From positions 61,690,782 to 61,754,781 of the forward strand of contig NC_083344.1 in assembly GCF_019175385.1 (NCBI RefSeq): DNA of 64,000 nt, read 5' to 3'. Of this stretch, positions 1-48,354 are shown piece by piece. The notes under the pieces are model-generated. The model worked only from the letters and a program-made list of their open reading frames with translations, did not search any database and was not told where the DNA came from. Positions within the stretch are counted from its first letter, which is position 1. Each line of letters starts with the position of its first letter. A program made the translations under genes and the position numbers. The DNA comes from Lycium barbarum. Its lineage: Eukaryota; Streptophyta; Magnoliopsida; Solanales; Solanaceae.

Positions 1-2574
1 GTAGCCAGGTTATAGAATTTTGTTGAATAGTTTATATTTATTATCCTATAAATGGATAAACTTTATGATTATATATTTTAATTAATATATGAAGATAAGA
101 TTTTTTTTTAGTGCCTGACATGTGTTTTCTCGGAAACATGACAATTGATTCATTTAATGCACCCACCGCCTCTTACATTAAAAATAGTGTCAATACTCTT
201 TTAACTTTCTACTTTGGCAACTAGTTACCACGTTACTTCACTTATAGGGATTCGTATATATTCCTTATCAGATCATTATCTAGCATATTGAAGTCCTAAT
301 CTTCTTAACTCTCTCAAGTGGTGCTACATTGAGGTGAATTTTATATATAGGGAACCAAAATTCCTCTTTCTCATCGTATATTCATTGCATGTCTTATATT
401 AATTAGATCTATAGTAATTTTGTTTCTACATGCTCAACGGACTTATATGGAGGATCAATTGGTGTAGTAACTGATTACTAAAAGCATCTACATCAGATTG
501 TTTGAGCTCGGATGCAAGGTACGTATTCGTTAAAAACTCATGGGACGGTGATCGGAAGCTGTGAGTTCAACCAGTGGTAGTTGTATAAGATGATTAGTTA
601 TTATTTTCTTGTGGTATGGAGATTGGTAGGGTTTGGTAGCTCGCTTAGAGCTTGTTTGTTGTTCAAAGGAGGTCGGATGTGGAGTACACCATTGTATTAT
701 AGCTTCGGGAATTTGTCGCCCCTTGATTACTTGAAGATAATGCTGGTACAAATGTAGTATTGGGTTGTTGTTGTTGTTGTTGATATATTGAGCCGAGCTA
801 AGCCTCGGGGGTATTATATGTATAGGGGAAGTGCTGCCGAAATTTCGGTAGACAAAATAAAAATAAGTGAATTCTTGAAGTCTTGCAATTCCTAATTGGT
901 AACTTTGACCATTTGTAGATTTTGGACGAAACGGAGTTTGATTTTGTACGAGCATGAGCCGCAAGAAAGGTATGTAAGGCTACCCATTCCTTCTTTTTGC
1001 ATGTCTTAGGTATACTAGGTCCATATTTGAGCCTCGGAGGCACTTCTGTTCCTTGAAATCCGAAATGGAAATCGAGTACTATTCACTCAATAGAATTGAA
1101 CTATAAAACCCATATTTTGCTGGAAAGTGCTCAAATGTCCGAAACTTTTGTAAATGCAATCGATTTGCTTCGAAACTTCCATGTATGCTTCTATAGACCC
1201 CAAATGTCCGTGATTCATGTCCGCCACCTCGACTTGACCCGAGGTGGGCCCGCTAACTCCGAGACTCTTTCGTTTGCTATATAAGGCTCATTTTTATATA
1301 ATGTCGGCAAACGACTTTTGTTTGTGAATTTGGCTATCGAAAAATAATGTTTTGATTGCCACGATATCCTAAATTATATTTTGAACCATAATTGCCATTT
1401 TGGAGATACTTTTGTGAAATGAACCCCGTTTTGATTAACTATTCGAACTATTTCGACTAATGTGTCAACATATGATTTTATCAAGTTTGCAAAAGTATTT
1501 TAATATATAAATTGCATTGTTTGCTCACGACTCCGCTCGTGCCCTTATTATGATTTCGTTCACCGGTTCCCGAGCCGGTTATGGTTCGTACGCGCTATGA
1601 CAAATTCGGCCGTATGCTGTGTTACGGTTCCCGAGACCTCGCCATAGGGCCGGGTTCCGTTTGGAGTTATGCTGTGATATGGCTGGTGATATGCTATGAT
1701 GATATGTGTGTTCGAGGATGTACGGAGATTTGAACCTTCTGGTGTTATGCTGTGTGTGGCACCAGCGTCGGAGTGGTGACCACGTTCCTCAGCTTTGCAT
1801 GATTTTTATGTGCATTATGTATATATGTTTTTGGTACAGATTTTTATATACTGGTCAGTATTCCCCTTCTGTAGCCGGTTTGTTTTCAGTTGTGATTTAC
1901 ATTTCTGTACTCTATGCTTTACATACTCAGTACATCTTTCGTACTGGCCCCCTTTCTTCAGGGGCTACGTTTCATACCCGCAGGTATAGAGATCAGTGAT
2001 CTGCCAGTGTAGGCCAAACGTTCTGCTATTACGGAGCGCTCCTTTGATCCGGAGCCCATATGTCGGTACATATCTTTTGTGATGTATATGCATCTGTATA
2101 TTTGACTATTTTGGGGTACGGCGGGGCCCTGTCCCGTCATACGTTTTCATTCTGTATTTGTAGAGGCCTATAGTCATATCTGTGGGTCGAGGGTCCTATA
2201 TGTGTCCACTTTGGTTACGATTTGCGTCTTAACGCGGTCCGTTTGATATGGTGGCCCAGAACGGCCCTTATGTTTGTATCTGTACTTATGATTGGCGACG
2301 TATATTCCGCCGGCCTATCAGATTTGGATACGGCCAAATGGCCTGTATATTTGTATGTGTGCATATGTATGGCGATGTGTATTCCGCCGCTCCTTTTTGT
2401 TCTGATATGATATTTGGGTATGCACGACCGCTTAAGACAAGTTTTGATTTAAATTATGTTTGAAATAATTATTATGAAATCTGAGCTATGTTTGGATATG
2501 ATGACTGGATATGTAAGTCTGTCTGGGTGCCCAAGTAGGGTGCCAGTCGCGGCCCATGGGGCTGGGTCGTGACA
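1..2574 (+). repeat. LTR of element J, left end outside window
   Basis: The right end reads GGGCTGGGTCGTGACA at 2574, the same terminus as the other LTRs here. The internal order also matches: TATA-like run near 343, donor-like AAG|GTACGT near 518, palindrome CCGAAATTTCGG at 837-848, second donor-like GGTATGTAAGG at 969-979, tandem hairpins at 1928-1964. No primer binding site follows the end, so it is a solo LTR or the 3' LTR of a plus-strand element. It sits inside the non-coding interior of E; CTCGT at 2575-2579 would be its target duplication, but the partner is off-window. Small ORFs inside it are not conserved and are not genes. Confidence 0.75.
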
Positions 2575-5888: not shown

Positions 5889-5893
5889 GATAT
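5889..5893. repeat. Target site duplication of element A (left)
   Basis: GATAT, repeated at 16897-16901. Confidence 0.93.
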
Positions 5894-8805
5894 TGTCACG
5901 ACCCAGCCCCGTGGGCCGCGACTGGCACCCTACCTGGGTGTCCAGACCAAATCGCATATTCATTTCCGAATCCAAACTTATTTCAGAATTTTCAAAAGTT
6001 ATATCAGACATAATTTATATCGAAAATCTGTCTTAAGCGGTCATATCAAATCAATCTCAAACAAAGCGGCGGAATAGACATCGCCGGTCAAAATACAAAT
6101 ATATACAAAAGGGCCATTTGGGGCCATCATATCAAACAGACCGCTTTAAGACCCGAAAGCAAAATCGGACAACATACACATAGGACCCTCGCCCCACAAA
6201 GATGACTACAGGCCTCTACGAATTTAAAACATAACATATGGCGAGATAGGGCCTCGCCGTACCCAAACTGTCAAATATACAAAACATATACAGAGTAAAG
6301 GAGTCTGTACCAAAAGTGGACTCCGGACCAAGTAAGAGTACTCCGGAAAGCAAGAAGCGAAGCCTACTGCGGAGGATCACCGATGTCTGCACCTACGGGC
6401 ATAAAACGCAGCCCCCGGAGAGAGGGGGTCAGTACGAAATATGTACTGAGTATGTAAAGCACGGAGTACAGAATTATGGATCAAAACCGAAAGCAAATCA
6501 AATGTCAAAGTGGGGTACAAACTGGTATGTCAAAATCTGTATCAAAATCATATACATATGTTTTATGCAAATAAAATCATGCAAACGCTTAAGAATGTGG
6601 TCGCCACTCCGACGCTGGCGCCACACACAGCATAACACCAGAAGGTTTCAAATCTCCGTACATCTCCGAACATAATCATAATCATCGGTGAGCATATCGC
6701 GTCCCGAGCCATATCACAGCATAACTCCAAACGGAACCGGGCCCTATGGCGAAGCCTCGGAAACCGTAACACAGCATACGGCCGAATTCATCATACAGCG
6801 CACGAATCAAAACCGGCCCGGGAACCGGTGAACGAAGTCATAATAAGGCACGAGCGGAGTCGTGAGCAAGCAAATGCAAATCGTATTTCAAAATAGTCTT
6901 TCAAAGCAAAGTGAACTCATAAGTCATTTTAGAATACAAAATAGTCGAATACTTAGCCGACATAAAGTTTCATTTTGCAAAACGTTTCCAAAATGGTCCA
7001 TATAGTTCGGAACATAGATTAGCGCATCGCATAGTCCAAACATACCCCGTAGGAGGATGTTCCAAAGATCGGAAGTGGTACTTTCAACTTTATTCTCAAA
7101 GGTGGCCCGAAGGGCAAATCGGGCATTTTGGGGTAGCGGACCCACCTCGAGTCGAAGTGAGGTGGCGAACATATTTTTACGAGCAGTTATATGCCAAGGG
7201 TCATACATAATCATTTCTAGGTTACCCGACCACATTTCGATAGGTTTCGGACGAATAATGGCATTCTAGCCAAAAGGGAGCCTTTAGGCTTCAATCGAAT
7301 TGAATGAATAGTAACTTTCCTGTGGATCGGGTTTCGAGGAGCAGAAATGCTCCGGAAGGTCTCATATTCAACTAACACACTAAGATATGCCAAATAAAGA
7401 ATTGGGAAGCTTTACATACCTCACAGACGTCGTAAGCTCTTCCAAAAGTCCCGTCCCGTTTCGTCAAAAATCTGCAAATGGTCAAAGTTACCCAATGAGA
7501 TCCTTAGGCTCAAAAAAATGCCTTTAACTCCATATTTGCCTACCGAAATTTCGGCAGCATTTCCCCTATAAATCTAACATCCCCGAGACTTAGCTCGGCT
7601 CAAAATACAACAACAACAACAGCCCACACATCAACAAACAACACAAACAACAATCAAGCCATTCTAGCTTCAAAATTCCACTTTGTTATCTAAATTGGCA
7701 ACTTCCATTCAAACTTTCAAAACTCCAATTCTACATCTACATAATTGGATTCATTTCCACATTCAAACTTATACAATCACAATCTAACTACAATCCAAGC
7801 CATACCCGAAATTACACCAAAATCCATTATGTTCCATAATTCTTCAAAACAATCAAAAGTGCACGACGAACATTCTAACTCACGTCGTTTCATTCCGAAT
7901 TCATTAACATCATTATAAGTTCATATCTAAAGTCTCTAGCACCCTAAATATACAATGATATACATAAAGATACAAAGGATATACACTTTCCGATAATATC
8001 CGAATTCGTTTTCCACCGCCAATTTAATTCAACAATCAATCATTTACGATATAAGGATCACAACAACACATTATACCAACTTAGCCAAGATCAATTCACA
8101 CCAATTTTTCCTTCTATGGCTCTCGGCCAAACCCACTACAAACACACACCCACGACTTTCTATTTACGTTAAAATTACGGGATTCTCGTCTACTTCCAAT
8201 CCTTAACACATTCATAGCAATTCTATAACATTAGAGGGGCAAGATTCTTACCTTTTACTAACTTTCCGACTTGTCGCAAACGGAATCCTTGTGCCAAACC
8301 AATTATACCACGTCGGAGAGCGTCTTGAGTATTTCTTAATTATGTAGAAACCAAGATTTTTGGATCACTAAACAAACTTGGGAATTTCTTTTTCTCTTCT
8401 ACACTATTCACGGCCGAACCCCTTCTTTCTTGTGTTCTTGAATTTTTTTTATTTTCTCTTGAATAATGCTAAGTGTTCCTCATATATATCCACTTAGGGG
8501 TCATGTGCATAGCACATGCCCCTTTTAAAAATGGATTTGGGCCACACTATGGCCGGCCCCCATTTGATCTTGGGCCTTGATTTTGCATTGCATTTTCTTG
8601 GCCCAATTCGAGAAAAGTCCCGTTTTGTAATTCCCGAAACTAATTTCCGAAATTCCAAATTTATCCTCGGCCTTCCCCGAGGTCTTAGCATTAAAGATTT
8701 CACAACCAACATAGTCATATTCTCACAAATTAATTTATACCCTTCTAACACCCAAGTCATAATTATTTCTCGATTTCCAATTGTACGAAAACACGGGACA
8801 TAACA
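5894..8805 (-). repeat. 3' LTR of element A
   Basis: 2912 bp, TG...CA ends. Differences from the 5' LTR seen by eye: the T in GGCGAGATAGGG near 6247, a C/T near 6667, T/G near 7167 and T/G near 8451. Landmarks: tandem hairpins 6412-6448, second donor-like site (GT complement at 7418-7419), palindrome 7543-7554, upstream inverted repeat near 8499-8521. Confidence 0.94.
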
Positions 8806-8915: not shown

Positions 8916-11900
8916 TCAATCAACACAACAAACTGAAAAAGGAATTAGATTACCTACGGATGTCGGAAACAAGTGGGGATATTTCTTCTTCATCTCGTCC
9001 TCCGCCTCCCAAGTCATCTCCTCCCGATTATTGTTGCGCCACAGGACTTTGACGGAGGGCACTTCTTTAGTGCGTAGTCTCCGCACCTGTCGATCCAGAA
9101 TAGATACAGGCTGCTCGTCATAAGATAATTGCTCCGTCACCTGAATGTCGTCAACTGGGAATATCCTGGCAGGATCACCAATGCATTTCCGCAACATAGA
9201 CACATGAAACACCGGGTGTACGGCCTCCAAGTCGGATGGTAAGTCTAGCTCATAGGCGACCTCGCCTATCTTTCGCACGATCTGATACGGTCCAATGTAC
9301 CGGGGGCTCAACTTACCCTTTTTACCGAATCTCATGACACCCTTCATGGGCGACACCTTCAGGAATACCCAGTCGCCAATCCGAAACTCTAACGGTCGAC
9401 GTCGTCTATCTGCATAAGCTTTCTGTCGACTCTGAGCAGCCAATAATCGTTCTCGAATAAGCTTTACCTTATCTACAGCCTCCTGGATTACATCTGGCCC
9501 AATCAACTTAGTCTCGCCCACGTCAAACCAGCCAATAGGAGACCTGCATCTCCTGCCATAAAGGGCCTCGTACGGAGCCATCTGAATGCTGGAGTGATAA
9601 CTGTTATTATAGGCAAACTCAATAAGCGGCAAATGATCATCCCAGCTGCCCCTGAAATCAATAACGCAGGCCCGCAACATATCTTCGAGCGTCTGAATAG
9701 TGCGCTCGGCCTGCCCGTCGGACTGAGGGTGAAAAGCTGTACTGAGACTCACCTGAGTCCCTAATCCCTCCTGAAATGACCTCCAGAAATTTGCTGTAAA
9801 CTGGGTACCTCGGTCAGTAATAATAGATATCGGGACTCCGTGAAGTCTGACTATCTCTCTGATATACAATCTGGCATAGTCCTCAGCCGAATAAGTAGTC
9901 CGAACCGGAAGGAAATGGGCTGATTTCGTCAGCCTGTCAACAACAACCCAGATAGAGTCGTACCTGCGTGGAGTGCGCGGTAATCCAACAACAAAATCCA
10001 TATTAATCATCTCCCATTTCCAGGCTGGAATTTCCATCTCCTGCAATAATCCACCGGGCTTCTGATGCTCGATCTTAACTTGCTGGCAGTTCGGGCACTG
10101 ACTAACAAACTCAGCAATATCTTTCTTCATGCCGTCCCACCAATACAAACACCTGAGGTCCCGATACATTTTAGTGGAACCAGGATGAACAGAATACCGT
10201 ACATTATGGGCCTCGCCCATAATCTGCCGCCGTAAGCCCGCAACATCCGGTACACAGAACCTGCCGTCGTACAATAATACTCCTTCAGGCGAGATTTCGA
10301 ACTGAGTCGTTGCTTTATTAAGGGCCACATCCCTGTACTGAATCAAAGTAGGATCCTCAAACTGGCGCTGCTTTACCTCCTGAATAATAGATGACTCAGC
10401 AACCGGGCGAACAGAAATCCCAGAATCTCCAGAATCGGCCAAACGAACTCCGAGGCTGGCCAGCTGATGAATATCACGAACCAAATCTCTCTTATCAGAT
10501 GGGACGTCAGCCAGACTGCCTACGGACTTGCGGCTAAGCGCATCAGCTACCACGTTGGCTTTCCCTGGATGGTACAAAATATCAACGTCGTAGTCCTTTA
10601 GTAACTCAAGCCACCTCCGCTGCCGCAAATTTAGTTCCTTCTGTCTGAAAATATACTGGAGACTTTTATGGTCCGTATAGATATCAACATGGACCCCATA
10701 TAAATAATGCCGCCAAATCTTCAGAGCATGAATCACCGCGGCCAACTCAAGATCATGAGTGGGATAGTTTTTCTCGTGCGGTCTGAGCTGCCGGGAAGCA
10801 TAGGCTATGACTCGACCGTGCTGCATCAATACACATCCTATCCCAATACCAGAGGCGTCACAATAGACAACATACCCGTCAGCTCCCTCCGGAAGAGCCA
10901 AAACTGGTGTTGTAATCAATCTCTCCTTCAGCATCTGAAAGCTGCGCTCGCAAGCATCTGTCCACTGGAATTTTGCTGCTTTCTGGGTAAGCCTCGTCAG
11001 TGGTGCTGCAATAGAAGAGAAGTCCTCCACAAACCTGCGATAATACCCAGCCAATCCCAGAAAACTGCGCACCTCAGTCGGTGTAGTAGGCCTGGGCCAA
11101 TTCTGCACAGCCTCAATCTTCTGCGTGTCAACCCGAATACCATCTGCGCCGACAATATGGCCCAAGAATGCCACAGAAGTCAACCAGAACTCACACTTAG
11201 AGAATTTAGCATATAACTTCTGCTGACGGAGAATGCCAAGTACCGTCCTCAAATGATCTGAATGCTCCTCGACTGATCGCGAGTAAATCAGAATATCGTC
11301 AATAAACACAATAACAAACATATCCAGGAAAGGCCGAAATACCCGGTTCATCAGATCCATAAATACTGCTGGAGCATTAGTCAGCCCGAAAGACATAACT
11401 CTGAACTCATAATGCCCGTACCGAGTCCTGAAAGCAGTCTTCGGGATATCTGACTCCCGTACTCGCACCTGATGGTAACCAGAACACAGATCTATCTTTG
11501 AAAAATGTCTAGCACCCTGCAGCTGGTCAAACAAGTCATCAATCCGGGGGAGGGGATATTTATTCTTAATAGTCACCTTATTCAGCTGCCGGTAGTCGAT
11601 ACACATCCGCAATGACCCATCTTTCTTCCTGACAAACAATACCGGCGCCCCCCAGGGTGATGTACTGGGCCTGATAAAACCCTTATCCAGCAAATCTTTC
11701 AGCTGCTCCTTCAACTCCTTCAACTCAGCTGGTGCCATTCTGTACGGAGGAATAGATATAGGCTGTGTATCCGGCATCAACTCAATAGTAAAATCAATCT
11801 CCCGCTCAGGCGGAAGGCCAGGAAGCTCGTCAGGAAAAACATCTGGAAACTCGCTGACGATCGGAACAGACTGAAGGGTAGATACCTCCGCGGCAGTATC

Positions 11901-13781
11901 GTGCACACGAACCAAATGATAAATATAACCCTTCTGGATCATCTTCTTAGCCTTGAGGTATGAAATAAACTTACCCCTCGGCGATGCAGTAGATCCGAAC
12001 CACCCTATGACTGGTTCCCCTGGAAACTGAAAACGGACTACCTTTTTCTGGCAGTCGACATTAGCATAACAGGAAGACAACCAGTCCATGCCCATAATGA
12101 CATCAAACTCGAGCATGTCTAACTCTACCAAATCAGCCTTAGTGCTACGATCATAAATGGTCACAGAACAATCCTTATAAATCTGTCTCGCTACAATAAA
12201 ATCCCCAACTGGCGTAGCTACCTCAAACGGTTCTATAGGCTCAGACACTATCCCAATTTTACTAGCAACAAGCGGGGAAATATACGATAAAGTAGAACCA
12301 GGGTCAATCAATGCATATACAGATCTGGAGAAAACCAGCAATGTACCTGTGACGACGTTTGGCGAAGCCTCCTGATCTTGGCGGCTGGCCAAAGCATATA
12401 TGCGGTTCGAGGGACCGCTAGAACCTGAAGTGCCACCGCGGCCTCGACCGCGTCCTGCCGGTGCTGAAATACCTCGCCCTCCAGGGCGTGCAACTGATGG
12501 AGCAGAAGAAGAACCGGCGGCTGACCCTGTCTGCTGAGCAGCACTACCAGAACCGCTAGCCAATGGACAATCTCTCATAAAGTGGCCCTGACCGCCACAA
12601 GAAAAACAAGCTCCCGTCGCTCGGTAACACTCCCCGGGATGTGACTTCCCGCAATGAGGACAACGGGGCCTGGGTGGTCTGGCCTGGCTGGGACCCCTGG
12701 GTACCTGTGAACCTGCCACTCTGGAGCTCTGACCGGCCCCAGACGGTCCTGTACTATCGAATCTCCGGCTACCTGACTGAGTACCCCGGCCGGAGGGAGG
12801 AAAATATCTGTCAGACTGCTGCTGCTGCTGAGGCTGTCCGCCTCGAGAATCCCCTGAATAACCCACGGATCTAGCCCTCTTGGGCGGCCTCCTGTCTCGA
12901 TCTCTGCCAGCAGGATCAGATCTGCGACGGTCCTCCATACCCATCGCATAGGCCTGAAGCCGGGAAATGTCCATGTCTGCCTGCAATGACACTGCCATAC
13001 AACTATCAACCAAATACCGGTCCAATCCCATAACATATCTGTGCATCCGATCGGACATATCTGCTACCACGGCCGGTGCATATCGGGCCAGAGAATCAAA
13101 CTCAAGGTTATACTCGCGAACACTCCGACCCCTCTGCTGCAGACGTAAGAATCGATCAGCCCGTGCCCGCCGTAACTCTGGTGGCAAAAAGTGGCGGGTG
13201 AATGCTGTCACAAACTGATCCCAAGTGGCTGGAGGGGCACCCTCTCCTCTAGACAGCTCCCAAGTCTCGTACCAGTGGGTGGCCACATCTCGAAGCCGGT
13301 GCGAAGCCAGCTCAACTGACTCAGTCTCTGAAGCCCTGACCAAGTCCAGTGAGCGTCGCATCCCCCGAATAAAGTCGTGGGGGTCCTCGTCGGGCTTAGA
13401 CCCGAAGAACTCTGGAGGGCCACATAGCAAAAACTCCCGAACTCTCAGGCTGTCCCGTCTGTCATCATCATCGTCGTCCCTCCGCCCGCGCCTGCGAGCC
13501 TGACCTGCTACCAGTGTAGTCAACAGCTGTACAGCCTCCCTCAGGGTCCTATCCTCCGCCCCTGGCTGAGGAGCTGGAGTCTCAGGTGCGGGTACACGGA
13601 CCTCTGGAGCTGCTGAAGGTCCTGCCCCAGGCTGTACTAGTGGGGGTGTAGCAGACCCCTCAGACTGTGGCACATCCTCAGGAAAATCATATACACGAGC
13701 CCGGGTAGCTCGCTGTGCCTGGCTAGTCTCCCCAATCCTCGCCTTGCCCTTCTGGGCTGCCGTTGCCTTCTTCGGAGGCAT
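8916..13781 (-). CDS. gag-pol: Gag-Pol polyprotein of element A (chromovirus)
   Basis: A single frame of 1621 residues encodes all retrotransposon proteins. I start at the ATG of MPPKK; an upstream in-frame GTG is not used. Approximate layout: Gag domain 110-260; a short CPHC...H...C knuckle followed by the zinc knuckle [14 protein letters not shown] near 390; protease active site in ALIDPGST near 492; reverse transcriptase with FIDD box near 828; RNase H from YCDASG near 972; integrase HHCC zinc finger near 1194-1230; D,D,E catalytic residues near 1260 (NMDF), 1322 (TDRGTQF) and 1358 (SDGQAERT); GPY motif near 1497; chromodomain near 1555-1605 with [15 protein letters not shown]. The chromodomain places it in the chromoviruses, with order and length fitting Del/Tekay. 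No stop or frameshift is seen. The protein would assemble particles, copy the RNA and integrate it, with the chromodomain guiding site choice. Expression is predicted from a spliced mRNA. Confidence 0.96.
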
Positions 13782-13783
13782 CA

Positions 13784-13815
13784 CTGCAAACACGAAGGCG
13801 AGTTAGATCAAAATC
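13784..13815 (-). promoter_or_regulatory. Predicted 3' splice site before gag of element A
   Basis: On the minus strand, a CTAAC branch-site match is followed by a pyrimidine-rich stretch ending TTTGCAG, with the AG (plus 13784-13785) two bases before the gag ATG. The same arrangement occurs in B, C, D and H. The inferred donor is at 16341-16342, giving a 2559-nt intron that contains the primer site. Confidence 0.65.
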
Positions 13816-13890
13816 ATCCTATTAGCACAGCTCTATCGCACGATCTAAGATTACAAAGAAAGTAACATCCTAAATGCCCTGTAGCTTCCC

Positions 13891-13924
13891 GTTTATAGAT
13901 GTGGTGCACAACACATCGATAAAC
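13891..13924 (-). other. Leader hairpin with self-complementary loop, element A
   Basis: RNA-sense arms GTTTAT/ATAAAC and GATGTG/CACATC enclose an 8-nt loop ending in GTGCAC, a 6-nt palindrome. Its form is that of a retroviral dimer-initiation stem-loop. The 34-nt unit recurs at the same place in B, C, D, E and H. Confidence 0.7.
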
Positions 13925-13968
13925 AAGACTCTACGAGACACGGCCTGTAGACATTCCGAGGACAAACC

Positions 13969-13980
13969 GCTCTGATACCA
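13969..13980 (-). other. Primer binding site of element A
   Basis: Minus-strand TGGTATCAGAGC, complementary to the 3' end of plant initiator-methionine tRNA, four bases after the 5' LTR end. It primes minus-strand DNA synthesis. Confidence 0.93.
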
Positions 13981-13984
13981 CTTT

Positions 13985-16896
13985 TGTCACGACCCAGCCC
14001 CGTGGGCCGCGACTGGCACCCTACCTGGGTGTCCAGACCAAATCGCATATTCATTTCCGAATCCAAACTTATTTCAGAATTTTCAAAAGTTATATCAGAC
14101 ATAATTTATATCGAAAATCTGTCTTAAGCGGTCATATCAAATCAATCTCAAACAAAGCGGCGGAATAGACATCGCCGGTCAAAATACAAATATATACAAA
14201 AGGGCCATTTGGGGCCATCATATCAAACAGACCGCTTTAAGACCCGAAAGCAAAATCGGACAACATACACATAGGACCCTCGCCCCACAAAGATGACTAC
14301 AGGCCTCTACGAATTTAAAACATAACATATGGCGAGACAGGGCCTCGCCGTACCCAAACTGTCAAATATACAAAACATATACAGAGTAAAGGAGTCTGTA
14401 CCAAAAGTGGACTCCGGACCAAGTAAGAGTACTCCGGAAAGCAAGAAGCGAAGCCTACTGCGGAGGATCACCGATGTCTGCACCTACGGGCATAAAACGC
14501 AGCCCCCGGAGAGAGGGGGTCAGTACGAAATATGTACTGAGTATGTAAAGCACGGAGTACAGAATTATGGATCAAAACCGAAAGCAAATCAAATGTCAAA
14601 GTGGGGTACAAACTGGTATGTCAAAATCTGTATCAAAATCATATACATATGTTTTATGCAAATAAAATCATGCAAACGCTTAAGAATGTGGTCGCCACTC
14701 CGACGCTGGCGCCACACACAGCATAACACCAGAAGGTTTCAAATCTCCGTACATCTTCGAACATAATCATAATCATCGGTGAGCATATCGCGTCCCGAGC
14801 CATATCACAGCATAACTCCAAACGGAACCGGGCCCTATGGCGAAGCCTCGGAAACCGTAACACAGCATACGGCCGAATTCATCATACAGCGCACGAATCA
14901 AAACCGGCCCGGGAACCGGTGAACGAAGTCATAATAAGGCACGAGCGGAGTCGTGAGCAAGCAAATGCAAATCGTATTTCAAAATAGTCTTTCAAAGCAA
15001 AGTGAACTCATAAGTCATTTTAGAATACAAAATAGTCGAATACTTAGCCGACATAAAGTTTCATTTTGCAAAACGTTTCCAAAATGGTCCATATAGTTCG
15101 GAACATAGATTAGCGCATCGCATAGTCCAAACATACCCCGTAGGAGGATGTTCCAAAGATCGGAAGTGGTACTTTCAACTTTATTCTCAAAGGTGGCCCG
15201 AAGGGCAAATCGGGCATTTTGGGGTAGCGGACCCACCTCGAGTCGAAGTGAGGTGGCGAACATAGTTTTACGAGCAGTTATATGCCAAGGGTCATACATA
15301 ATCATTTCTAGGTTACCCGACCACATTTCGATAGGTTTCGGACGAATAATGGCATTCTAGCCAAAAGGGAGCCTTTAGGCTTCAATCGAATTGAATGAAT
15401 AGTAACTTTCCTGTGGATCGGGTTTCGAGGAGCAGAAATGCTCCGGAAGGTCTCATATTCAACTAACACACTAAGATATGCCAAATAAAGAATTGGGAAG
15501 CTTTACATACCTCACAGACGTCGTAAGCTCTTCCAAAAGTCCCGTCCCGTTTCGTCAAAAATCTGCAAATGGTCAAAGTTACCCAATGAGATCCTTAGGC
15601 TCAAAAAAATGCCTTTAACTCCATATTTGCCTACCGAAATTTCGGCAGCATTTCCCCTATAAATCTAACATCCCCGAGACTTAGCTCGGCTCAAAATACA
15701 ACAACAACAACAGCCCACACATCAACAAACAACACAAACAACAATCAAGCCATTCTAGCTTCAAAATTCCACTTTGTTATCTAAATTGGCAACTTCCATT
15801 CAAACTTTCAAAACTCCAATTCTACATCTACATAATTGGATTCATTTCCACATTCAAACTTATACAATCACAATCTAACTACAATCCAAGCCATACCCGA
15901 AATTACACCAAAATCCATTATGTTCCATAATTCTTCAAAACAATCAAAAGTGCACGACGAACATTCTAACTCACGTCGTTTCATTCCGAATTCATTAACA
16001 TCATTATAAGTTCATATCTAAAGTCTCTAGCACCCTAAATATACAATGATATACATAAAGATACAAAGGATATACACTTTCCGATAATATCCGAATTCGT
16101 TTTCCACCGCCAATTTAATTCAACAATCAATCATTTACGATATAAGGATCACAACAACACATTATACCAACTTAGCCAAGATCAATTCACACCAATTTTT
16201 CCTTCTATGGCTCTCGGCCAAACCCACTACAAACACACACCCACGACTTTCTATTTACGTTAAAATTACGGGATTCTCGTCTACTTCCAATCCTTAACAC
16301 ATTCATAGCAATTCTATAACATTAGAGGGGCAAGATTCTTACCTTTTACTAACTTTCCGACTTGTCGCAAACGGAATCCTTGTGCCAAACCAATTATACC
16401 ACGTCGGAGAGCGTCTTGAGTATTTCTTAATTATGTAGAAACCAAGATTTTTGGATCACTAAACAAACTTGGGAATTTCTTTTTCTCTTCTACACTATTC
16501 ACGGCCGAACCCCTTCTTTCTTGTGTTCTTGAATTTTTTTGATTTTCTCTTGAATAATGCTAAGTGTTCCTCATATATATCCACTTAGGGGTCATGTGCA
16601 TAGCACATGCCCCTTTTAAAAATGGATTTGGGCCACACTATGGCCGGCCCCCATTTGATCTTGGGCCTTGATTTTGCATTGCATTTTCTTGGCCCAATTC
16701 GAGAAAAGTCCCGTTTTGTAATTCCCGAAACTAATTTCCGAAATTCCAAATTTATCCTCGGCCTTCCCCGAGGTCTTAGCATTAAAGATTTCACAACCAA
16801 CATAGTCATATTCTCACAAATTAATTTATACCCTTCTAACACCCAAGTCATAATTATTTCTCGATTTCCAATTGTACGAAAACACGGGACATAACA
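13985..16896 (-). repeat. 5' LTR of element A
   Basis: 2912 bp. Reading in RNA sense: inverted repeat with CATGTGC arms (16590-16612), TATA box (16573-16580), canonical splice donor AAAAG|GTAAGAATC with GT complement at 16341-16342, palindrome 15634-15645, second donor-like GTATGTAAAG (complement 15509-15510), tandem hairpins 14503-14539. The predicted exon 1 between TATA and donor has no ATG, while the rest of the LTR has many. Confidence 0.94.
16338..16347 (-). promoter_or_regulatory. Predicted 5' splice site in the 5' LTR of A
   Basis: Minus-strand AAAAG|GTAAG lies about 235 nt after the TATA box. An AAG|GTAAG-like site at this relative position is seen in the LTRs of B, C, D, E, H and I. 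Confidence 0.62.
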
Positions 16897-17752: not shown

Positions 17753-19658
17753 CCTCTAGAAACTTCAAGACTTTAGGAGAAAAGAAAAGAAGGAGAAAAA
17801 CATCTAGACCCTTTCGGCCATAGCAAGAGCAAGAGAAACCTTGGGGATTTTTCATCAAAAAATTCACCTCTTCTATCCAAACAATCCATTGAAGGTTCCT
17901 AAGCAAAGTAGAGTGGTTTTTGAAGCAAGGAAAACACATTTTCATGTATGTTGTGGATTCTAGTCAAGTGAAGGGTTAGAGACAAAAGGTAAGAATTCAT
18001 TCCCTTTCATATGTTATGGATGTTGTGCATGTTGTAGCGTATGGAATGAGTGAAATTCATGAAGAAGATAAAAATGGGGGTTGGCCGTGTGTTGTGTGTG
18101 TGTGACCGTGCATGTGTGTTTTAGTGTAAGCCGTGTGGTTGTGTTGAAATATGGAAGAGAATGAGTCAATTTTATTTAGAGTTTTGGTTGTTGTTATGTT
18201 GTGGGTTCTATATTGCTAATGAATGTCTAGGAACCTTAGTGAAGTTGTAGTAGTGGAGGCTTGTTTTAGAAGTTATATGAATGGAATATAATGTTCTTGC
18301 ATGCATGAAAGACAATATGATTAGTATGATTTTGTTGGAATATATTATGAGGTTGTTATTGTTTTTATTGGAGTTGGAAGGTTTTTGAAAGAAGTACTAA
18401 ATTGATTGAATATGGAAATTGTTAGTATTGTTGTTGGCATTGTGATTGATAATTTGGCCGCGTTGAATTCCCGGGATTGTTGTTGATTGAAATTGGCCAA
18501 GTTGAACTTGGTGGGGTAGAGTATTTACAGGGGAAGTGCTGCCGAAATTTCGGTAGACAAATGTTACTTTAAGATTCCAATTCCAAATGCTCTAACCAAA
18601 GTTGGTAAATGTGACCAATTTGTAGATTTTAACGGATTTGCAACTTGAGTTTGGAATAGCATAAGGAGCGGAAAGAGGTATGTAAGGCTTCACCCTTCCT
18701 TCTATGGCATGTCTTAGACGTAATATGTTGGATATGAGCCTCGGGGATAACTCTACCCTCCGGAATCCGCGCCTAAAGTTTCCCCTTTTTCATTCAGTAG
18801 AATTGAATTAAAAATTGTGTAAAATGTTGAAAGAATCTCCTAAACCTCTAGAAGTCGCATAAATAGGACCCGACTAACCTAAAACCCTCACAAGTAATGC
18901 CATGACATGTAACATATGTAAATTTGGCACGCCGCCTCATTTGACCCGAGGTGGGCCCGTTGTTCCCGGATTTTCCTTATTGTTCTGCTTGACTTACTTT
19001 GAAGCTGAATCCAAAAGAAACCTTTGATTCTTATTCCGTTGTCAAATGTCAAGTACTATACCTACCCCAATGAGAATACTTCTATGACGATAATGATAAC
19101 GATGATGTTAGAAAACAGAATATGCCTACGATAAGTATGACCGGAATGATTCCATGACCAAGATTTCTAAGCAAAGGATTCAATGTGAATACGAAGGTGA
19201 CAAACTAATTCTTGATCCTTATCTCTATTTCTTAGCTATGACACTATGTTCTAAGGATTTCAAAGCGTATGTATTGACGTCTATGATGCCTATGATTTCA
19301 TACTATGTTTTCTTCTAGTACTATTCTTCGTTGGTAGTCTCGCCTTAAAATACTTGTTCCTTCAAGGTGAGACGGAGCGATCACGGTTGTTCCATAACGT
19401 AATCGGAGGTCACCAACCTTACGTCACTCCAATGGCTACATGATTTTTCCTTGGTCTCTCTTGCATGCTTATAAGATATATATATATATATATATAAGAT
19501 ATGTATATGAACATGGGGTGGGGGAAGGGATACATGGGGATGGGAAGGGAAACATGTTTCACTGCCACCTGGTCAGCTGGCTTATCATCCCGGACGCGGG
19601 ATATATGGGCGAGCCGATGTATTTCGGTGCTATGTGGGCGAGCCGACATTGTTCAGTG

Positions 19659-23141: not shown

Positions 23142-26045
23142 TGTCACGACCCAAACCAATGGGCCATGACTAGTGCTCGAACTGGACACCCGTATACGAA
23201 CCTATTACATATAGTCAAACTGGAACTAAGGACAATATGGAAACTTGCAAAAACAAACGAAGGGTTCGCAACACCCCATATCATAAACCTATCTCCTGAG
23301 GAGTGACAACATAACAATAACACAATATGCAAGCCGACAAGGCTGCCACTATACACGGGGATATCCAAAGCATAACAATAACACCATACGTAAGCCGACA
23401 AGGCTGCCACTATACACAGGGATATCAAAAGTAAACCATATAGACACAGCTGACCAAAACTTATGTACAACCCACATATGTGTCTACAGACCTCTAAGAG
23501 TACAAGAGTGAAGTATGATGGGACAGGGCCCCGCCGTACCCCTGGATATATATAAGTCTATATAGAAGATCTGGACCCAAATATCTAGGCTCCGAAACAA
23601 TGAAGCTCTCCAAATAGCCGAGAAGAAGTCTTAAGCTGGAGGATCACCAAATTGAGTATCTGTACCTGCGGCCATGAAACGCAGCCCCCGAAGAAAGGGG
23701 GTCAGTACGGAATATGTACTGAGGATATAAAGCATGTAATGCAATAAAGAGAATCATAACTAAATAGAAGACTACAGAAGGCAAGTATGATAATCAAAGA
23801 TACCAATGCACCTGTGCCTTACGAGATAAGAATCATGCATGTCTATACCATATACCATATCTGGCCCATTATGGGACTCGGTGAATAAAGTCATCATATA
23901 CCATACTCAGCGCCATAATCACATCATAATAATCATATACCGTACCCGGCCATCTAGTGAGGGACTCGGTGAACAATACAGGGAAACTGTGCACGAAAAC
24001 ATACCCGGCCCGGGACTCGGTGAAAGATTTATTAACAGTATGCACGAGCAGAGTAATGAGCAACCATATGCAGACTAAATCACCATCTGAGACTCAATAG
24101 AATAAGTAGAATAAACTAACACTTGAGTATCAAAGACAACAGTTATGTCAAATGCCCCTCGAATGTCATTATGGATCATATTAAATAGAACTTCAGGAAT
24201 CATAGACACGTATCAAAACATAGTGAAATAGGTTCTGGAAATCAAGGTCATTAGCTATCATAGTGTCTTTAAGAATATGAACTTCTTTGGAGTTATACGC
24301 TCGTCGTCTATTTATTTCATAAAGATCATGCCAAAAAGAAAGAAAAGTTACCTTTACATACCTTGATTTACGACCCTCGGAACAATTATGATGAATCAGC
24401 CCATTTTTAAGACTTTATCTACAAGATAATAATAGTAACACAAGCATTAGCCAACTTGTAATCAAGCACAACCAACAAGACAACATATGGACAATACGAC
24501 GAGCCACGAGCTTGCTTTATGACAACTATTCGGCGTTTCACCTTGCCCTCCTCCAAAAACTCCATAACAACAATAATACAACTAGGCTATGTACACATTA
24601 GCTCAACCTCATGTTCAGAAATTTAATTACGATAAGAGCAGCCCGGCTATAGCCTATACAAATTCGGGCAGCATTTCCCCTGAGAACTCAACAATCCTCG
24701 AGATCCCAATTCAGCAAAAATATCGACAATATACCAACAATAGCAATACCAACAATTTCATATCAAGCTAGAATCGGATCCACCTCTAGATCATTTTCAA
24801 AACAGCCCACAATCACAATATCAATTAATTTCCATAAACGAGGAAATTATCTCAACAACACAACAACAACCACAATGGCAATAATGAGAACTATATGACA
24901 ACAACAACAGTTACGACACACCAATAATTAATTCTAACATCTCTTGCGATGTTTATTCATTCTGTCAATCCTTTAACCAATTATACGATATCTTACACGC
25001 TTGTTATCTTCCAAATTTACGAGCCATATCTACAACACGACAACAACATCAACCACCATCCAAGTACAATAAAACTACTTCAACATCATTTTAACAACAA
25101 GTTCGAAACAGTCCACCCAAACTACAACATAAAAAATACGATTTTCAATCTTTACTTCGCAAAATTACAAACACACGGAAAAGAGTATAATATTTCCATG
25201 AACAACAGCACCCATACTTATCTATAACTATATTTCCAGCCCTTCAACATATCAAATTACCTTCATTACAATACCATGATAATGACAACACTAATCAAAC
25301 TTAATCCAATTAGAACAACTCCAATTCTGCCCACTTACAACGCCAACAATAATCATGTAATTTTCTTACTTCAAATGTCGTTTAATACACTTTAATCTCT
25401 CCATTACAACATCATTAACTCCGATTACATTACAAGAAGAAGAAATCTTACCTTAAAGTGATTGGGACAGATCCTACAATCACTTGCACCAATTGCACCA
25501 CTTCTTCTTCTTCATTTTAAATTCTAACTTTGGTTCTCCCTTGCACACGTAAAGCACCCTTGGAATTTAATTTTTTTCTATCAAAATCTTGAGCCTCATT
25601 GTGGACTGCCATGGCCGTGAGGTTGGCAGCCATAGCTGTTCATGGTTCTCTCTCTAAATTAATTTTGTGAAGATGAAATATGAGCTATGCTTTGTCATCA
25701 ACCAAGTTATATATGCTACCAGCTCTTAAGACATGTGTCCAACCACAATGACAAGTGTCCCACTCAACTAAACACCAATCAGATTCAGCCATGTTTTATG
25801 GGGCCCACTTAGTGGTTTAATTAGCTTAATTAATCATTAATCCCCACTTAATAATCTGATCATGGTTAATTAATCCCTAATCTCCACTAATATTTCTACA
25901 CTAATTGAAATTTACAACCAAATCGTGCACTTATTAAAATCGGGTTTAAAAAGTCCTTGTCCCATATCTCAAAAATAACCTTGTCCTTGAACTTATGTCG
26001 ATTAGCTTACGAATAATCCAACATACAAAAATACAGGGTATAACA
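23142..26045 (-). repeat. 5' LTR of element E
   Basis: 2904 bp, plus-strand ends TGTCACGACCC and ATACAGGGTATAACA. The primer site lies at its left, so this is the 5' LTR of a minus-strand element. Sites: tandem hairpins 23685-23721, second donor-like site (GT complement 24360-24361), eroded palindrome near 24670, canonical donor TTAAG|GTAAGATTTC (complement 25450-25451), TATA box near 25707-25714. It is inserted in the 5' LTR of D at 26046; the other E LTR is off-window. Confidence 0.88.
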
Positions 26046-28627: not shown

Positions 28628-30721
28628 TGTTACACCTCAGAAAATTTCATGTCGTTGCACGGTAAATAGACTAATGTAGTGTAAGATGTATATGATGTCC
28701 CTACAAGTAAGAAGGGGTACTTAACAATTCTAATTAAGATTCCAAAGATATTCAAGGCAAGAGAAGAAAGTTCGTTGAAGAAGGTGGTAAAGTGTAAGTC
28801 GTGCTTTGAAAAGGGTTTCAAAGTACCGAGCTAGTGTTGATTTAATAATGTCTTGAGGAAAAGTTATAATGCTCCTTAGATTGTTAATGAAGTGTTAAAC
28901 AAGTGCTAAGAAGGTTCCATAAGGATTGGAGATCAAACAAAACGACGAGATTAACTTCAGAAAAATAGAGTTATACGACCACTTATATAGTCCGTATAAC
29001 TTTATACGGTCCGTATAAGGGGTCCGTATAACCTTACAGAAAAGGGGATTTCCCTGATGGTGAAATACGATCACTTATACGAACCGTATAAGGGTCTGTA
29101 TAACTCCCGTTGGGCTGAGTATTTTCCAAGTATAAATATATGTTCCTACTTCTAATTTCTCATTTTTCCAACTTCTCCACTTCTCTCAAGACCTCTAGAA
29201 GGTTCCACACATTTCACTAACATAAATTCAAGGGAAATCAAAGATCAAATACCAAAACTAGTAGAATCAAGTACAAAAATGCTAATGAGGGTTGATGGAA
29301 GCTAGAAATTTCTTTGGAAGTGGAGCTAGGGTTTTCTCCAAGTGAAGCAATTCCATCCAAAACCTTTTCCTTCACAATCAAAGGTAAGTTTTATGTTCAT
29401 TTCATGCTATTAAGAGTATTGAATAGTTGAAAGACTTAGATTATGGAAGAAAGTAGAGAATAGGTTACAAATAAAAGAATGGCATTCTTGAATAGTAGTT
29501 TGACATGAATTATGATTCTTGAGATGTTATGAGTGAAATCTTGTTGTAAATGATACAAATGATGTTAAAGAGGTACTATATGAGAAGGAATACGATGTTA
29601 TGCCATAGCTATGGTCATGAATCATTTTGATAGGGAATTGTGGGAATTGGATAATGTCGAACTTGACAAAGTTATTGATTACGCTATTATGAATATTTTT
29701 ATTGATGTTAGGGGTTTTTATAGCAGATGGAGGAAGTTATAGAAACAAAGGAGATGCTGCCTCATTTTCGTTAGCTTTGGCTTAAGCTTAAGTATGTTTC
29801 TGATTATCTAATCTTAGTACGAATTCTCTTAAATGTAGAATCGTGAACATTGGAGGAAAGCGTTTAATTGTTAAAGTTGGAGAGACGTAAAGGTATGTAA
29901 GGCTAGTCCCTTCTTCTCTACGGCATGATTCCTATAACGTGACTTTCTTTATCTTTCCATGACTCTCTTATATTCCGAAAACTATGAGTCTATGATTACT
30001 AAGAGCTTCGTATGAAATAAAGATAAGAGATGCGTTGTGAATATGAAGATGATGATGATGATGAGTCTAAGTCTAGTGATTCTAAAGCTTATGATATGAT
30101 AGTCTTACAAAGCTAATGATTCCTTGATGTTGCTCATTGTTATACTCATCTTATAATGCTAGTTCCTTCGTGGCGTGATGATCATAACTACTCCATAATG
30201 GAAATCGGGGATTCTCGACCTTACGTCACCCCGATAGAGTTATAGATTATACTTGAGTTTTAATGCATGCTTTATGATAAGTATATAATGATTAGATTAC
30301 ACCGCGCCTACATGGTCGGGCAGACACCGCTAAGGCGGGCAGCATACACATCATGTCTAGATGGCATGGGCAGACACCACTAGTGGGCGGCATGAGATGG
30401 TTACCCCGGACGCAGGAGACCTGGACGCGGGCTAATTATGATCACACCGTACCTATATGGTCAGGCAGATTGTATATACATACTCGATATGATGTTGTTT
30501 ATGATGTAAGTTAGCATGCATTATTCTGTCTTAAGTGACATCCAGTTGCAGGTTGTTTCCTTACTTAATGTTGTTTTGTCTCTTCGACATGTTATTATTG
30601 TATATGCCTTACACACTCAGTGCACTGTTCGTACTGACGTCCTTTCTTTTTGGACGCTGTGTTCATGCCCACAGGTAGGCAGGGAGGCGGCCCAGATCTT
30701 TAGGAGCTACTCGACAGATTC
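28628..30721 (+). repeat. 3' LTR of element D, left part
   Basis: Starts TGTTACACCTCAGAAAA at 28628 and is interrupted by element C. With 51394-51716 it totals about 2417 bp, close to the 2403 bp of H, which it resembles. Sites: TACGGNCCGTA-type array 28980-29105, TATA box TATAAATA 29131-29138, strong donor CAAAG|GTAAGTTT with GT at 29384, second donor-like GT at 29893, tandem hairpins 30618-30656. Confidence 0.88.
30717..30721. repeat. Target site duplication of element C (left)
   Basis: GATTC, repeated at 51389-51393. Confidence 0.9.
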
Positions 30722-35741: not shown

Positions 35742-35756
35742 AAGAAAAAGGTAAGA
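35742..35756 (+). promoter_or_regulatory. Predicted 5' splice site in the 5' LTR of B
   Basis: AAAAAG|GTAAG, about 238 nt after the TATA box. Paired with the acceptor at 38454-38455 it gives a 2705-nt intron spanning the primer site and leader hairpin. Confidence 0.62.
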
Positions 35757-37606
35757 TTTTTATGTTTTAATGTTATGAAATGGATATATATGTGTTAGTG
35801 ATTGGATTAGTGTGAAGATTGTGGGATGAGGTTGTGTTTGTGCATGGTGTGTGTGTGTAAAAAGGGTGTGTTTGGCCGTGAGTTCCATGTGGTGCAAGCC
35901 ATAAGAATTTTATCTTGTTTAGTTTGAATAATGTGTTGTTGTGATCTTTATGTCGTAAAGGATCGATTAAAGAATTGAGTTGGTGCTAGCAAATAATTTC
36001 GGACGTTATCGGAAAGCGTATACATTTGGTATATTTGTGTATATCATAGTATATTTATGACACTAAAGACCTTAAATAAGATTTATGGTTGATGATAACG
36101 AATTTGGAACGAAACGACGCAAGTTAGAACATTCGTCGTAACTTTTGGTGTTTTGAATGAAAATTGGAAAGTAGTGAACTTTGGGGATGTTTGTATGTGG
36201 TTTGGAACTTGTATGTAGTGTGTTTGAATAATTGGGAATGAGTGAATGAATGGACTAAGGTGGAAATAGATTTGGAATTTTGAAGTTGAATCAAGAATTT
36301 GCCAACTTATGTATTAAAGTGAAATTTTGAAGTTAATGTAGTATGATTGTGGGTTGTATGGTTTAATGATGTTTGGGTTGTTGTTGTCGTTGTATTTTGA
36401 GCCGAGCTAAGTCTCAGGGGTGTTAGATTTATAGGGGAAGTGCTGCCAAAATTTCGGTAGCCAAATTTAGCCCAAAGACTAAAATGTTAATTCTCATGAA
36501 TAGTAACTGGTAAAGGTGACCATTTGCAGTTTCTGGACGAAACGGGAATTGCGATTTGAGGAGCGTAAGGCGCCAACCAGGTATGTAAAGCCTACCTATC
36601 ATTCTTTTGGCATGTCCTAGTCATACTAGGTTAATATCGGAATCTCGGGGGTAACTCTGCTCTTGGAAATTTAGGTTCAAGTTTGGGTACTATTCATCCA
36701 GCGCAATTGAACCCTTTTGTTGCATTTGGTCCAAAGAATGTTCGAATCGTCATAACTTTTGTTGTTGTGTCCGAAACTCTCCGAAACTTTCGTAGATGGC
36801 TCTAGGGAGCCTAAAGTCTGTGATTTGCATCCGCCGCCTCAATTTGACTCGAGGTGGGCCCGCGAGCCCCAAGGCTCCCCTTATTCGGTTTGTTTGGTTC
36901 GTTTGCGTCCGCTATGATCAGCGATCGTTTGTTTATGACCCAATGCTGCGTTTGAAACTTCCTATGCCATTAGTGAACGTTTTGTACTTTGAATAATGTG
37001 AGGTTTTCAGAACATGACCTATAAACAGTTTTCTCTAAAGATTTGGCAGTTGGAACTTCGTACCTTTTACCCGCAAATTTTTCTTAATCTGATTCCTACT
37101 CCGAGCCTTCTGGCGTCGGTATATACCTATATGTAAACTATATGTTGAGTCCGGTAAATTATTTTTGATATGCATATGGTTTCTGCACTACTCTGTTCGT
37201 GCTGTCTGCTATGATTTCGTTCGTCGGTACCCGGGCCGACTTTGTGATCGTGCGCGCCATAACATATTCGGGAGTCATGATGTGTTACGGTTTCCGAGGC
37301 CTCGCCATAGGGCCGGTTACCGTTTATGGAGTTATGATGTGATATGGCATATGATATGTTCTGATGATGTGATGTGTGTGTGATATGATGTGTCTGGAGA
37401 CTGTACGGAGATTTGAAAACTTCTGGAGTTATGATGTGTTGTGGCACCAGCGTCGGGGGGTGACCACGTTCCTAAACCCTATACATGATTTGATTGCATT
37501 TGTACGTTCGCCTCCCGCACAGGTTTGCTTTGTTTACGTTGACGGTGTGTTTGTTCTTTCTGACTCCAGCTGTGTAGTGATTTCTGTACCTTCTGCTTTA
37601 CATACT

Positions 37607-37644
37607 CAGTACTTCTCCCGTACTGACCCCCGTTTATTCGGGGG
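37607..37644 (+). other. Tandem LTR hairpins, element B
   Basis: Hairpin 1: CAGTAC/GTACTG around 7 nt. Hairpin 2 starts two bases later: CCCCCG/CGGGGG around 6 nt. Second copy from 44044. Equivalent pairs exist in A, C, D, E, G, H and J; the second stem changes to GTCC/GGAC in D and G and the related GTTC/GGAC in H. Confidence 0.75.
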
Positions 37645-38251
37645 CTGTGTTTCATGCCCGCAGGTACAGAAGCTCGTTTGGGTGGTCCTCCAGTTTAGGC
37701 TACTCATTCTGCTGTGTTGGAGAGCTCCCCTTGATTCGGAGCCTACTTTTGGTACATATCTTCTGTTGTATGTGTGTGTTCGGTACATTTGTGGATGTGT
37801 GGGTACGGCGGGGCCCTGTCCCGTCATATGTTCATATGTTCTGTTTTGTTTAGAGGCCTGTAGTCAGATTTGTGGGTCGTGGGTCCGGTGTGTTTGCATG
37901 TGAGTCTGTTTTGCGTTCTTAAGCGGCCCGTACGCTGCTATGGCCAAGTCGGCCTCTGAGTTTGTATGTATGTGTATGTACTTGGGGGCGATGTGCATTC
38001 CGCCACCCTTCTGATGTGTGTGTGTGAAATTTGGCGATGTATATTCCGCCTCCTTTCTGATTTGTGTTTTGTCTGATCTGTACGGGCGACTGCTTAGGAT
38101 AAGTGTTCGGTAGATGTCTGATTACGATGTTGAGTTCGAATAACGTACGTGAGTTTGGGCGAGTCTGATTACGATGATCTGGGTGTGAGTTCGTTTGGGG
38201 TGTCCCAGAAGGGCACCAGTCGCGGCCCACGGGGTTGGGTCGTGACAAAAG

Positions 38252-38263
38252 TGGTATCAGAGC
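38252..38263 (+). other. Primer binding site of element B
   Basis: TGGTATCAGAGC, initiator-Met tRNA type, four bases after the LTR. Confidence 0.93.
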
Positions 38264-38307
38264 GGTTTGTCCTCGGAATGTCTACAGGCCGTGTCTAGTA
38301 GAGTCTT

Positions 38308-48350: not shown

Positions 48351-48354
48351 CTTT

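Follow-up and report, generated by a model that had tools for sequence, protein, structure and literature searches.

Exact loss of an intron in genomic copies points to splicing inside the long terminal repeats of a Ty3 retrotransposon family of Lycium barbarum

Plant retrotransposons with long terminal repeats (LTRs) generally lack introns, with few exceptions (recent review, PMC12786077, in excerpt). In BARE1, a Ty1/copia element of barley, 104 nucleotides (nt) are spliced out at the end of gag from the donor CAG/GTAT, and separate RNA pools exist (PMC3735527, in excerpt). Among the titles and abstract openings listed by searches of open-licence papers, none reports introns inside the LTRs of a plant element. 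Here we describe such a case in a stretch of 64,000 nt of Lycium barbarum DNA (contig NC_083344.1; hereafter the window, with positions counted from its first letter and strands in brackets), genome-wide counts being taken from the host genome (1.67 Gb). By self-comparison the window consists of nested long-LTR Ty3 elements, A, B, C, H, E and G, with further LTRs D, I and K; the letters D, G, I and K possibly differ from those of an initial annotation. That annotation had placed in the LTR the donor of one intron reaching to gag. The donor is real and has 15 exact junctions to its credit in the genome, but its demonstrated partner is the acceptor of a second LTR exon about 0.3-1 kb downstream, not the gag acceptor. 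This exon 2, a 3' terminal exon and a donor at the gag end were absent from the earlier account.

In the 5' LTR of A (13984..16896(-); 2,913 bp), a TATA-like box (16574..16579(-)) lies 237 nt before the donor GTAAAAG|GTAAG, whose first intron base, read directly, is 16342(-). Exon 1 (16343..16547(-)), with transcription presumed to start about 32 nt after the TATA box, is followed by intron 1 (15563..16342(-); 780 nt, GT...AG) and by the 52-nt exon 2 (15511..15562(-)), which begins after TTTGCAG|, ends in GAG|GTATGTAA and, like exon 1, contains no ATG. A near-perfect, strongly conserved palindrome, CTGCCGAAATTTCGGTAG, stands about 70 nt before exon 2 in A (15631-15648) and at the equivalent place in B, C, D and I.

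The evidence for removal of intron 1 comes from LTRs that have lost its homologue exactly. The junction pattern AAAAG|WTTYTKGACGAAACGG, which takes in only LTRs with these exon ends, had 15 matches in the host genome and none when reversed as a control, compared with 6,056 sites (3,041 + 3,015; control 0) for the intron-bearing counterpart, in which the start of exon 2 follows TTTGYAG. All 15 junction loci were read. Family exon 1 lies upstream in every one (best z-scores 9.3-31.0), a TATA-like box is found 239-264 nt upstream in 13 (L017 and L018 are without one by the patterns used), and exon 2 runs directly into GTATGTAA in 14. L013 (around base 1505) carries a tandem duplicate of exon 2, with exact exon boundaries, between exon 1 and GTATGTAA, which suggests reverse transcription of an RNA that contained exon 2 twice. 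The loci form 10 groups, between which the exon 1s are at most 86% alike. Half of these groups are same-strand pairs, 4.6-7.3 kb apart, whose compared stretches are 99.66-99.93% identical; pair identity starts at the LTR start in L011/L012 and L014/L015, and the match ends at about the LTR start in the pairs on contigs C11 and C14. Identity extends further in L009/L010, which may not be a simple LTR pair.

The lost segment can be measured by aligning L016 with the LTR of C: the two match on both sides (81% before, 96% after) of a gap at LTR positions 566-1467, which is the predicted 902-nt intron, with a boundary uncertain by 2 nt (AG being common to both ends). L011 and L012 match A from the start of exon 2 at 95%. 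Of four pieces fetched from intron-1-less elements, three (L041, L042 and L044) contain the primer site, in L041 together with the gag acceptor; neither is visible in the piece of L043. It is difficult to see what but reverse transcription of spliced RNA could have joined the exons precisely where predicted in as many as 10 dissimilar groups; some of these groups may descend from one event. The junction loci look like retrotransposed spliced RNAs, and on this genomic record splicing of intron 1 within the LTR can be regarded as demonstrated.

The exon 2 unit recurs across the LTRs of the window. In a block alignment of LTRs, TTTG[CT]AG| followed by about 50 nt and AG|GTATGTAA occupies one position in A, B, B2, C, D and I, and a scan of E, G and H picked out the exon 2 donor there too, again preceded by a YAG. 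Exon 2 is present in all eight distinct LTRs surveyed, with a length of 43-57 nt, and intron 1 including its acceptor measures 331-1,033 nt. AGGTATGTAA occurs 14 times in the window, 13 times within an exon 2-type unit, the exception being at 28422. Intron 1 lies at 35751..36529(+) in B (direct reading and scan), 49922..50823(-) in C (the 902 nt exactly absent in L016), 53015..53345(+) in H, 24419..25451(-) in E (scan), 519..918(+) in D, 17989..18625(+) in LTR I and 29384..29838(+) in the 3' LTR of G. Exon 2 occupies 36530..36580(+) in B and 49871..49921(-) in C (both by scan), 919-969 in D, 18626-18677 in I and 29839-29892 in G. LTR K, which is cut by the window end, retains the exon 1 donor (63391..63396(+)); its exon 2 was not found in the 609 nt remaining before that end.

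The initial annotation had also named the donor, branch-like site and gag acceptor of A (16342(-), 13784) and equivalent donor and acceptor sites in B (35751/38455), C (50823/48154) and H (53015/54824), all of which direct reading confirmed. Its placing of the donor some 235-260 nt after TATA holds as well: AAG|GTA[AC]G is kept in nine distinct LTRs, and a TATA-like box lies 237-264 nt upstream in eight of them, H having only TAAATA. In the ninth (+17989), another element has apparently cut away the part upstream of the donor. The window contains AAGGTA[AC]G 21 times, counting both strands, and 15 of these are at the donor place of an LTR copy; those outside A, B, C, H and E include +519, +17989, +29384 and +63391. 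Six lie elsewhere (+4871, -46308, -43500, -41208, -37063 and -22814), the last with a TATA 240 nt upstream by chance. Per LTR, the 8-mer has a probability of about 6e-4 of falling within a given 28 nt by chance; not one copy of it is present in the LTR-side sequence beyond the exon 2s (7,056 nt). Aligned against shuffles, exon 1 gives z < 3 in 30 of 36 LTR pairs and at least 4.5 in the other six (A/B, A/C, C/I, C/K, G/H and I/K). Since the donor is kept although exon 1 is barely alignable in 30 of 36 pairs, shared ancestry alone is a poor explanation for it.

The predicted exons are also poor in start codons. Exons 1 and 2 together contain 8.8 ATG/kb vs 38.7 ATG/kb in intron 1, and in 20,000 random placements within intron and downstream sequence a count this low never arose, whether for A-C, for D/E/G/H/I or for all eight. 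Exon 1 of A, B and C has no ATG at all, as had been noted before. In A, B, C and H, a ribosome scanning unspliced RNA would have 76 to 89 ATGs to pass in introns 1 and 2 on its way to gag.

Downstream of exon 2, a second intron is predicted to end at gag. A YAG ends 2 nt before the gag ATG in A (TTTGCAG|TG ATG), B (TTTGCAG|TGATG), C (TTTGCAG|TTATG) and H (TTTCAG|AGATG); in these four elements the leader is conserved beside the primer site, then diverges, and then TTTGCAG or TTTCAG returns. E had been said to keep both intron ends. Its two sites are present (25451/22939), but the acceptor form TTTCAG|CAGG at 22939 has no gag ATG beside it; the aligned piece of G stops short of this region. In A the acceptor (13784..13790(-)) precedes the ATG at 13781, and predicted intron 2 (13784..15510(-); 1,727 nt, 51 ATGs) spans the rest of the LTR, the primer site and the leader. 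The corresponding introns would be 36581..38455(+) in B (gag ATG 38458), 48154..49870(-) in C (gag ATG 48151) and 53389..54824(+) in H (gag ATG 54827). The primer binding site TGGTATCAGAGC, which we take to be of the initiator tRNA-Met type, follows TGACAAAAG with zero mismatches in A (13969..13980(-), read directly), B, C, E and H; the copy in G is mutated. A leader hairpin with a self-complementary loop was found by folding at 13887..13928(-) in A, 38300-38351 in B, 48250-48302 in C, 54668-54722 in H and 27175-27235 in G, and is stable in all five (z -3.2 to -5.2). The loop hexamer stays self-complementary while changing, from GTGCAC (A, B, C, E) to GCGCGC (H) and AGCGCT (G), and presumably resembles a retroviral dimer initiation signal. 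Because the hairpin lies within predicted intron 2, it would be lost on splicing. We infer the splice from exon 2 to gag, which would remove the primer site, from the conservation of its sites and the depletion of ATGs.

A third LTR exon probably serves as the 3' terminal exon. Its start is marked by a conserved block about 0.5 kb before the LTR end, in which two hairpins precede an acceptor such as CGCAG|GTACAGA, and which was seen in A, B, B2, C, D, E and H (six distinct LTRs). In the 5' LTR of A, the copy of the start of exon 3 lies at 14455..14483(-), after the acceptor CCCGTAG| ending at 14484. In the 3' LTR of A the coding start of exon 3 (6364..6392(-)) encodes (G)ADIGDPPQ*, a potential alternative Gag tail. 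The adjacent hairpins (CAGTAC..GTACTG and CCCCC..GGGGG; 14500-14540 in A, 37602-37668 in B, 48845-48908 in C) are conserved just 5' of the acceptor, and a role in the control of splicing or 3' end formation is possible. The acceptor CAG|GTACAG is itself donor-like (A 6392 and 14483; B 37665), a property seen in recursive splice sites.

Gag models in the databases imply that such terminal exons are joined to a donor at the end of gag, which in A reads GTCACAG|GTAC (12343..12353(-), last exon base 12347) and is used in NCBI Gag models. Two protein searches, limited in scoring to the about 8,000 candidates with the most words in common, retrieved 118 distinct proteins, and in 43 of these the Gag end was visible by one pattern. 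Seven have exon 3-type tails (P0001, P0003, P0005, P0006, P0011, P0013 and P0083); P0011 is from Solanum dulcamara and the other six are from L. barbarum. Their sequences depart from the polyprotein at VVTG, or at the corresponding residues, and finish in, for example, TDIGDPPL or TDDRFAEPSA, and matching peptides are encoded by LTR exon 3 (ADIGDPPQ* in the LTRs of A, TDTQFGDPPA* in those of E, TDDRFTDPSA* in those of C). Exon 2 read from the gag donor accounts for the end of P0044 (DFGRNGN), and P0019, missed by the pattern, ends in DFGGNGN; P0024 and P0032 (exon 3) and P0077 (exon 2) are possible further cases. A locus 98-99% like P0044 contains the donor GATACAG|GTATAC, the exon 2 tail DFGRNGN* in the downstream LTR and exon 3, in this order. 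Exon 2 in the 3' LTR of A (7420..7471(-)) would, judging from these other copies, be an alternative acceptor for a gag-only RNA. Among the remaining Gag ends, eight are as unspliced sequence would give and one is cut short; eight models from Nicotiana, S. pennellii and S. dulcamara that splice the gag donor into pol were taken as pipeline artefacts and not counted.

Taken together, these features probably describe one mechanism, in which splicing of a small gene structure inside each LTR of Tekay/Del-type Ty3 elements feeds the gag-pol mRNA and unspliced RNA is the genome. Transcription would start after the TATA box near the 5' end of the LTR, and exon 1 would be joined to the exon 2 of about 50 nt, as the fossil junctions record. 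The exon 2 donor would then be joined to the YAG before the gag ATG, excising most of R/U5 together with the primer site and the hairpin resembling a dimer signal, and the double-spliced RNA, with its nearly ATG-free 5' leader, would be the gag-pol mRNA. If the gag-end donor is used as well, gag would be joined to exon 2 or 3 of the 3' LTR and only Gag would be made, as the gene models suggest. RNA that escapes splicing would keep the primer site and leader and serve as genome; RNA spliced only at intron 1 also keeps the primer site and may occasionally be copied, giving LTRs without intron 1. Unspliced RNA thus seems fitted for replication, and spliced RNA for translation. The initial annotation had assigned the two RNAs in the same way, and this is still the best reading, with support from the rarity of intron-less LTRs (15 vs 6,056), the division of labour itself being deduced. 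Its single intron of 2.5 kb removing the primer site is more likely to be two introns, of which the first keeps that site and the second would remove it.

Several observations weigh against parts of this scheme. The evidence consists of genomic DNA and gene models. Exon 1 has two to five ATGs in six of nine LTRs (D, E, G, H, I and K), and the exons are poorer in T (mostly 0.16-0.30, with 0.37 in exon 1 of D, vs 0.32-0.39 in intron 1), a difference in base composition that accounts for some of the ATG depletion. The exon 2 acceptor of H is weak, and the patterns used revealed no exon 3 in G or I. Junctions of exon 2 with gag and of exon 2 with exon 3 numbered zero in the host genome. An exon 1-gag pattern had 60 matches (control 2), of which 10 were fetched and none proved to be exon 1 or gag, and a gag-exon 3 pattern had 35 (control 9), none of the 12 fetched being gag. 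N-terminal extensions before an MPPK-like start occur in 10 of the 118 database proteins; we read all 10 as crossing the acceptor and so as stemming from unspliced sequence or unspliced-type models, and took none for a translation of exon 1 or 2 in front of Gag. Odd N-termini, such as that of P0008, also occur. P0027 runs straight from the leader into gag. At the other end of gag, 15 of the 43 models or frames run on into protease, and P0044 also skips about 380 nt inside gag. The NCBI annotation pipeline uses RNA-seq. The Gag models, which by their names appear to come from this pipeline, are supporting and not decisive, as they can be partly ab initio.

Four other explanations have to be weighed. 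Splicing might be confined to the LTR introns, from exon 1 to 2 to 3, yielding short LTR transcripts, while gag is expressed from RNA bearing the primer site and the YAG before its ATG is a chance occurrence or relic. The only junction seen in the genome is indeed that of exons 1 and 2, the LTR has its own terminal exon acceptor, and some Gag models read through the gag acceptor. The exon 2-gag junction is missing from the genome; yet such an RNA, being without the primer site, should leave no genomic copies, so that the zero count is expected with splicing and equally without it, and the exon 2-exon 3 junction, which is part of this explanation, is missing too. Moreover, in A, B, C and H the YAG has stayed 2 nt from the ATG despite divergence just upstream, the 10 N-terminal extensions are compatible with a YAG 1-2 nt before the ATG (codons deduced), and the retained 1.4-1.9 kb would hold 43-63 ATGs. 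We consider this explanation rather unlikely. Direct splicing of exon 1 to gag over one intron of about 2.5-2.9 kb with exon 2 skipped, as initially annotated, would use two sites that are both strong by eye; yet exon 2 offers an acceptor and the same donor in eight of eight distinct LTRs surveyed, and the fossil junctions link exon 1 to exon 2. As sole model this intron was demoted once exon 2 had been found, and we now regard it as unlikely.

The donors might alternatively serve mainly to restrain poly(A) addition in the 5' LTR through U1 binding, with splicing secondary. Foamy viruses use a major donor in R in this way (PMC3694450, in excerpt), and the donors described here also lie upstream of the 3' part of the LTR. 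This would leave the paired acceptors, the exact intron loss and the ATG depletion unexplained; we think it improbable as the main function, and it can hold in addition to the mechanism above. Finally, the blocks may be promoter or structural elements that resemble splice sites by chance, given that LTR blocks, the hairpins included, are conserved for unknown reasons. With exons 1 and 2 joined exactly at the predicted sites in ten LTR groups and the lost segment measured in L016 against C, coincidence is scarcely credible, and for intron 1, though for intron 1 only, it is refuted by the genomic copies. The splicing mechanism proposed above could be extended further: the LTR would be a mobile three-exon minigene, Gag and Gag-Pol would arise only from RNA spliced free of U5, primer site and dimer signal, splicing would be the switch between mRNA and genome, the gag-end donor would set the Gag:Gag-Pol ratio, and solo LTRs would scatter a promoter with ready exons. 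This full version could as easily fail as hold.

The elements themselves lie nested in one another. The LTRs of A (3' LTR, 5893..8805(-)) are 99.86% identical by self-comparison. Its single open frame (8916..13781(-)) encodes Gag, protease (PR), reverse transcriptase (RT), RNase H and integrase (INT), followed by a weak chromodomain; the Pfam order is gag 158-254, RVP_2 459-584, RVT_1 717-877, RNase H 940-1064 and INT 1183-1352. The integrase match (rve) scores 32.4 bits against a cut-off of 32.6, and the C-terminal Chromo match (1560-1604) is weak, with 22.3 bits (E 1.2e-4) against a curated cut-off of 25.1. This anatomy fits a Tekay/Del chromovirus, an assignment made from domain order and general knowledge and not from an RT tree. 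An Ogre-type intron between the PR and RT frames is not present in A, where the frame is open from 13781 to 8916. Element B (LTRs 35191-38251 and 41632-44688(+), 99.3% identical) is inserted inside C (LTRs 48352-51388 and 30719-33762(-)) and has only 3.4 kb of internal sequence with a single gag frame of 490 amino acids (aa); it looks like a gag-only, non-autonomous element, and gag-type frames of about 495-530 aa are numerous elsewhere in the genome. A splits a B-type LTR (3687-5893 and 16897-17750), which in turn appears to interrupt LTR I, and this nesting, with that of B within C, gives the relative order of insertions. In the 3' LTR of H, a direct duplication of 936 bp (59845-60780 and 60900-61835, 97%) holds the exon 1 donor twice (60646 and 61701). 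Nine of the 12 GTCACAG|GTRCAGA matches fetched for the gag-exon 3 pattern (L029-L032, L034, L035 and L038-L040) sit in LTR-like sequence immediately upstream of the same CAGTAC/CGGTAC..GTACTG hairpin block and point to another LTR family with a splice-like site at this place.

Searches for relatives gave little. A Gag pattern hit seven stretches in a viral contig collection, none of them confirmed, the primer-site pattern had no matches there or in a genome contig collection, and Rfam returned nothing at the gathering threshold. Reading frames within the LTRs of B (37376-37900) and C (31042-31509) had no Pfam match and were set aside.

The apparent novelty lies in LTRs that have an intron and exons of their own, as the intron-lost copies show, and in a gag exon flanked by a splice site at either end. 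In contrast to the general lack of introns in plant LTR elements, an abundant Ty3 lineage keeps introns inside its own LTRs, and splicing there probably divides the transcripts into those that are translated and those that are reverse transcribed. Intron-less LTRs are a natural record of which RNAs were turned into DNA, so that the sharing of transcripts between translation and replication becomes countable, here as 15 sites that have lost the intron against 6,056 that bear it. Promoters with functional splice sites, able to join neighbouring sequence, may be present in thousands of LTRs.

Gag of foamy viruses is made from unspliced RNA. Like the elements described here, these viruses have their major splice donor inside R of the LTR, but their pol has its own spliced RNA (PMC3694450, in excerpt), whereas in Lycium the donor's partner is another exon of the LTR, with gag proposed as the target. 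For plant elements, a term search of a CRM survey (PMC3059260) found no use of the word intron, and term searches of papers on LORE1 (PMC2832683) and the sunflower mobilome (PMC11728184) gave nothing on splicing. Nanopore reads of the sunflower elements Tyran and Varan do show spliced isoforms with (truncated) gag frames, but Tekay is absent from the expressed set and the excerpt mentions no LTR intron (PMC7730604). In EVD/ATCOPIA93 of Arabidopsis, a short gag mRNA (shGAG) likewise arises by alternative splicing; unlike the present family, EVD is a copia element whose splice removes the protease region, and LTR exons are not mentioned in the excerpt (PMC12786077). Ogre of legumes is, like A, a plant Ty3 element with a spliced intron, which in Ogre lies between frames (PMC6317226, in excerpt). 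BARE1 resembles the mechanism proposed here in keeping translation and replication RNA pools separate and in making Gag only through a splice at the gag end; its pools differ by promoter and cap, with no LTR intron mentioned in the excerpt (PMC3735527), whereas in the Lycium family splicing within the LTR itself would draw the line between them.

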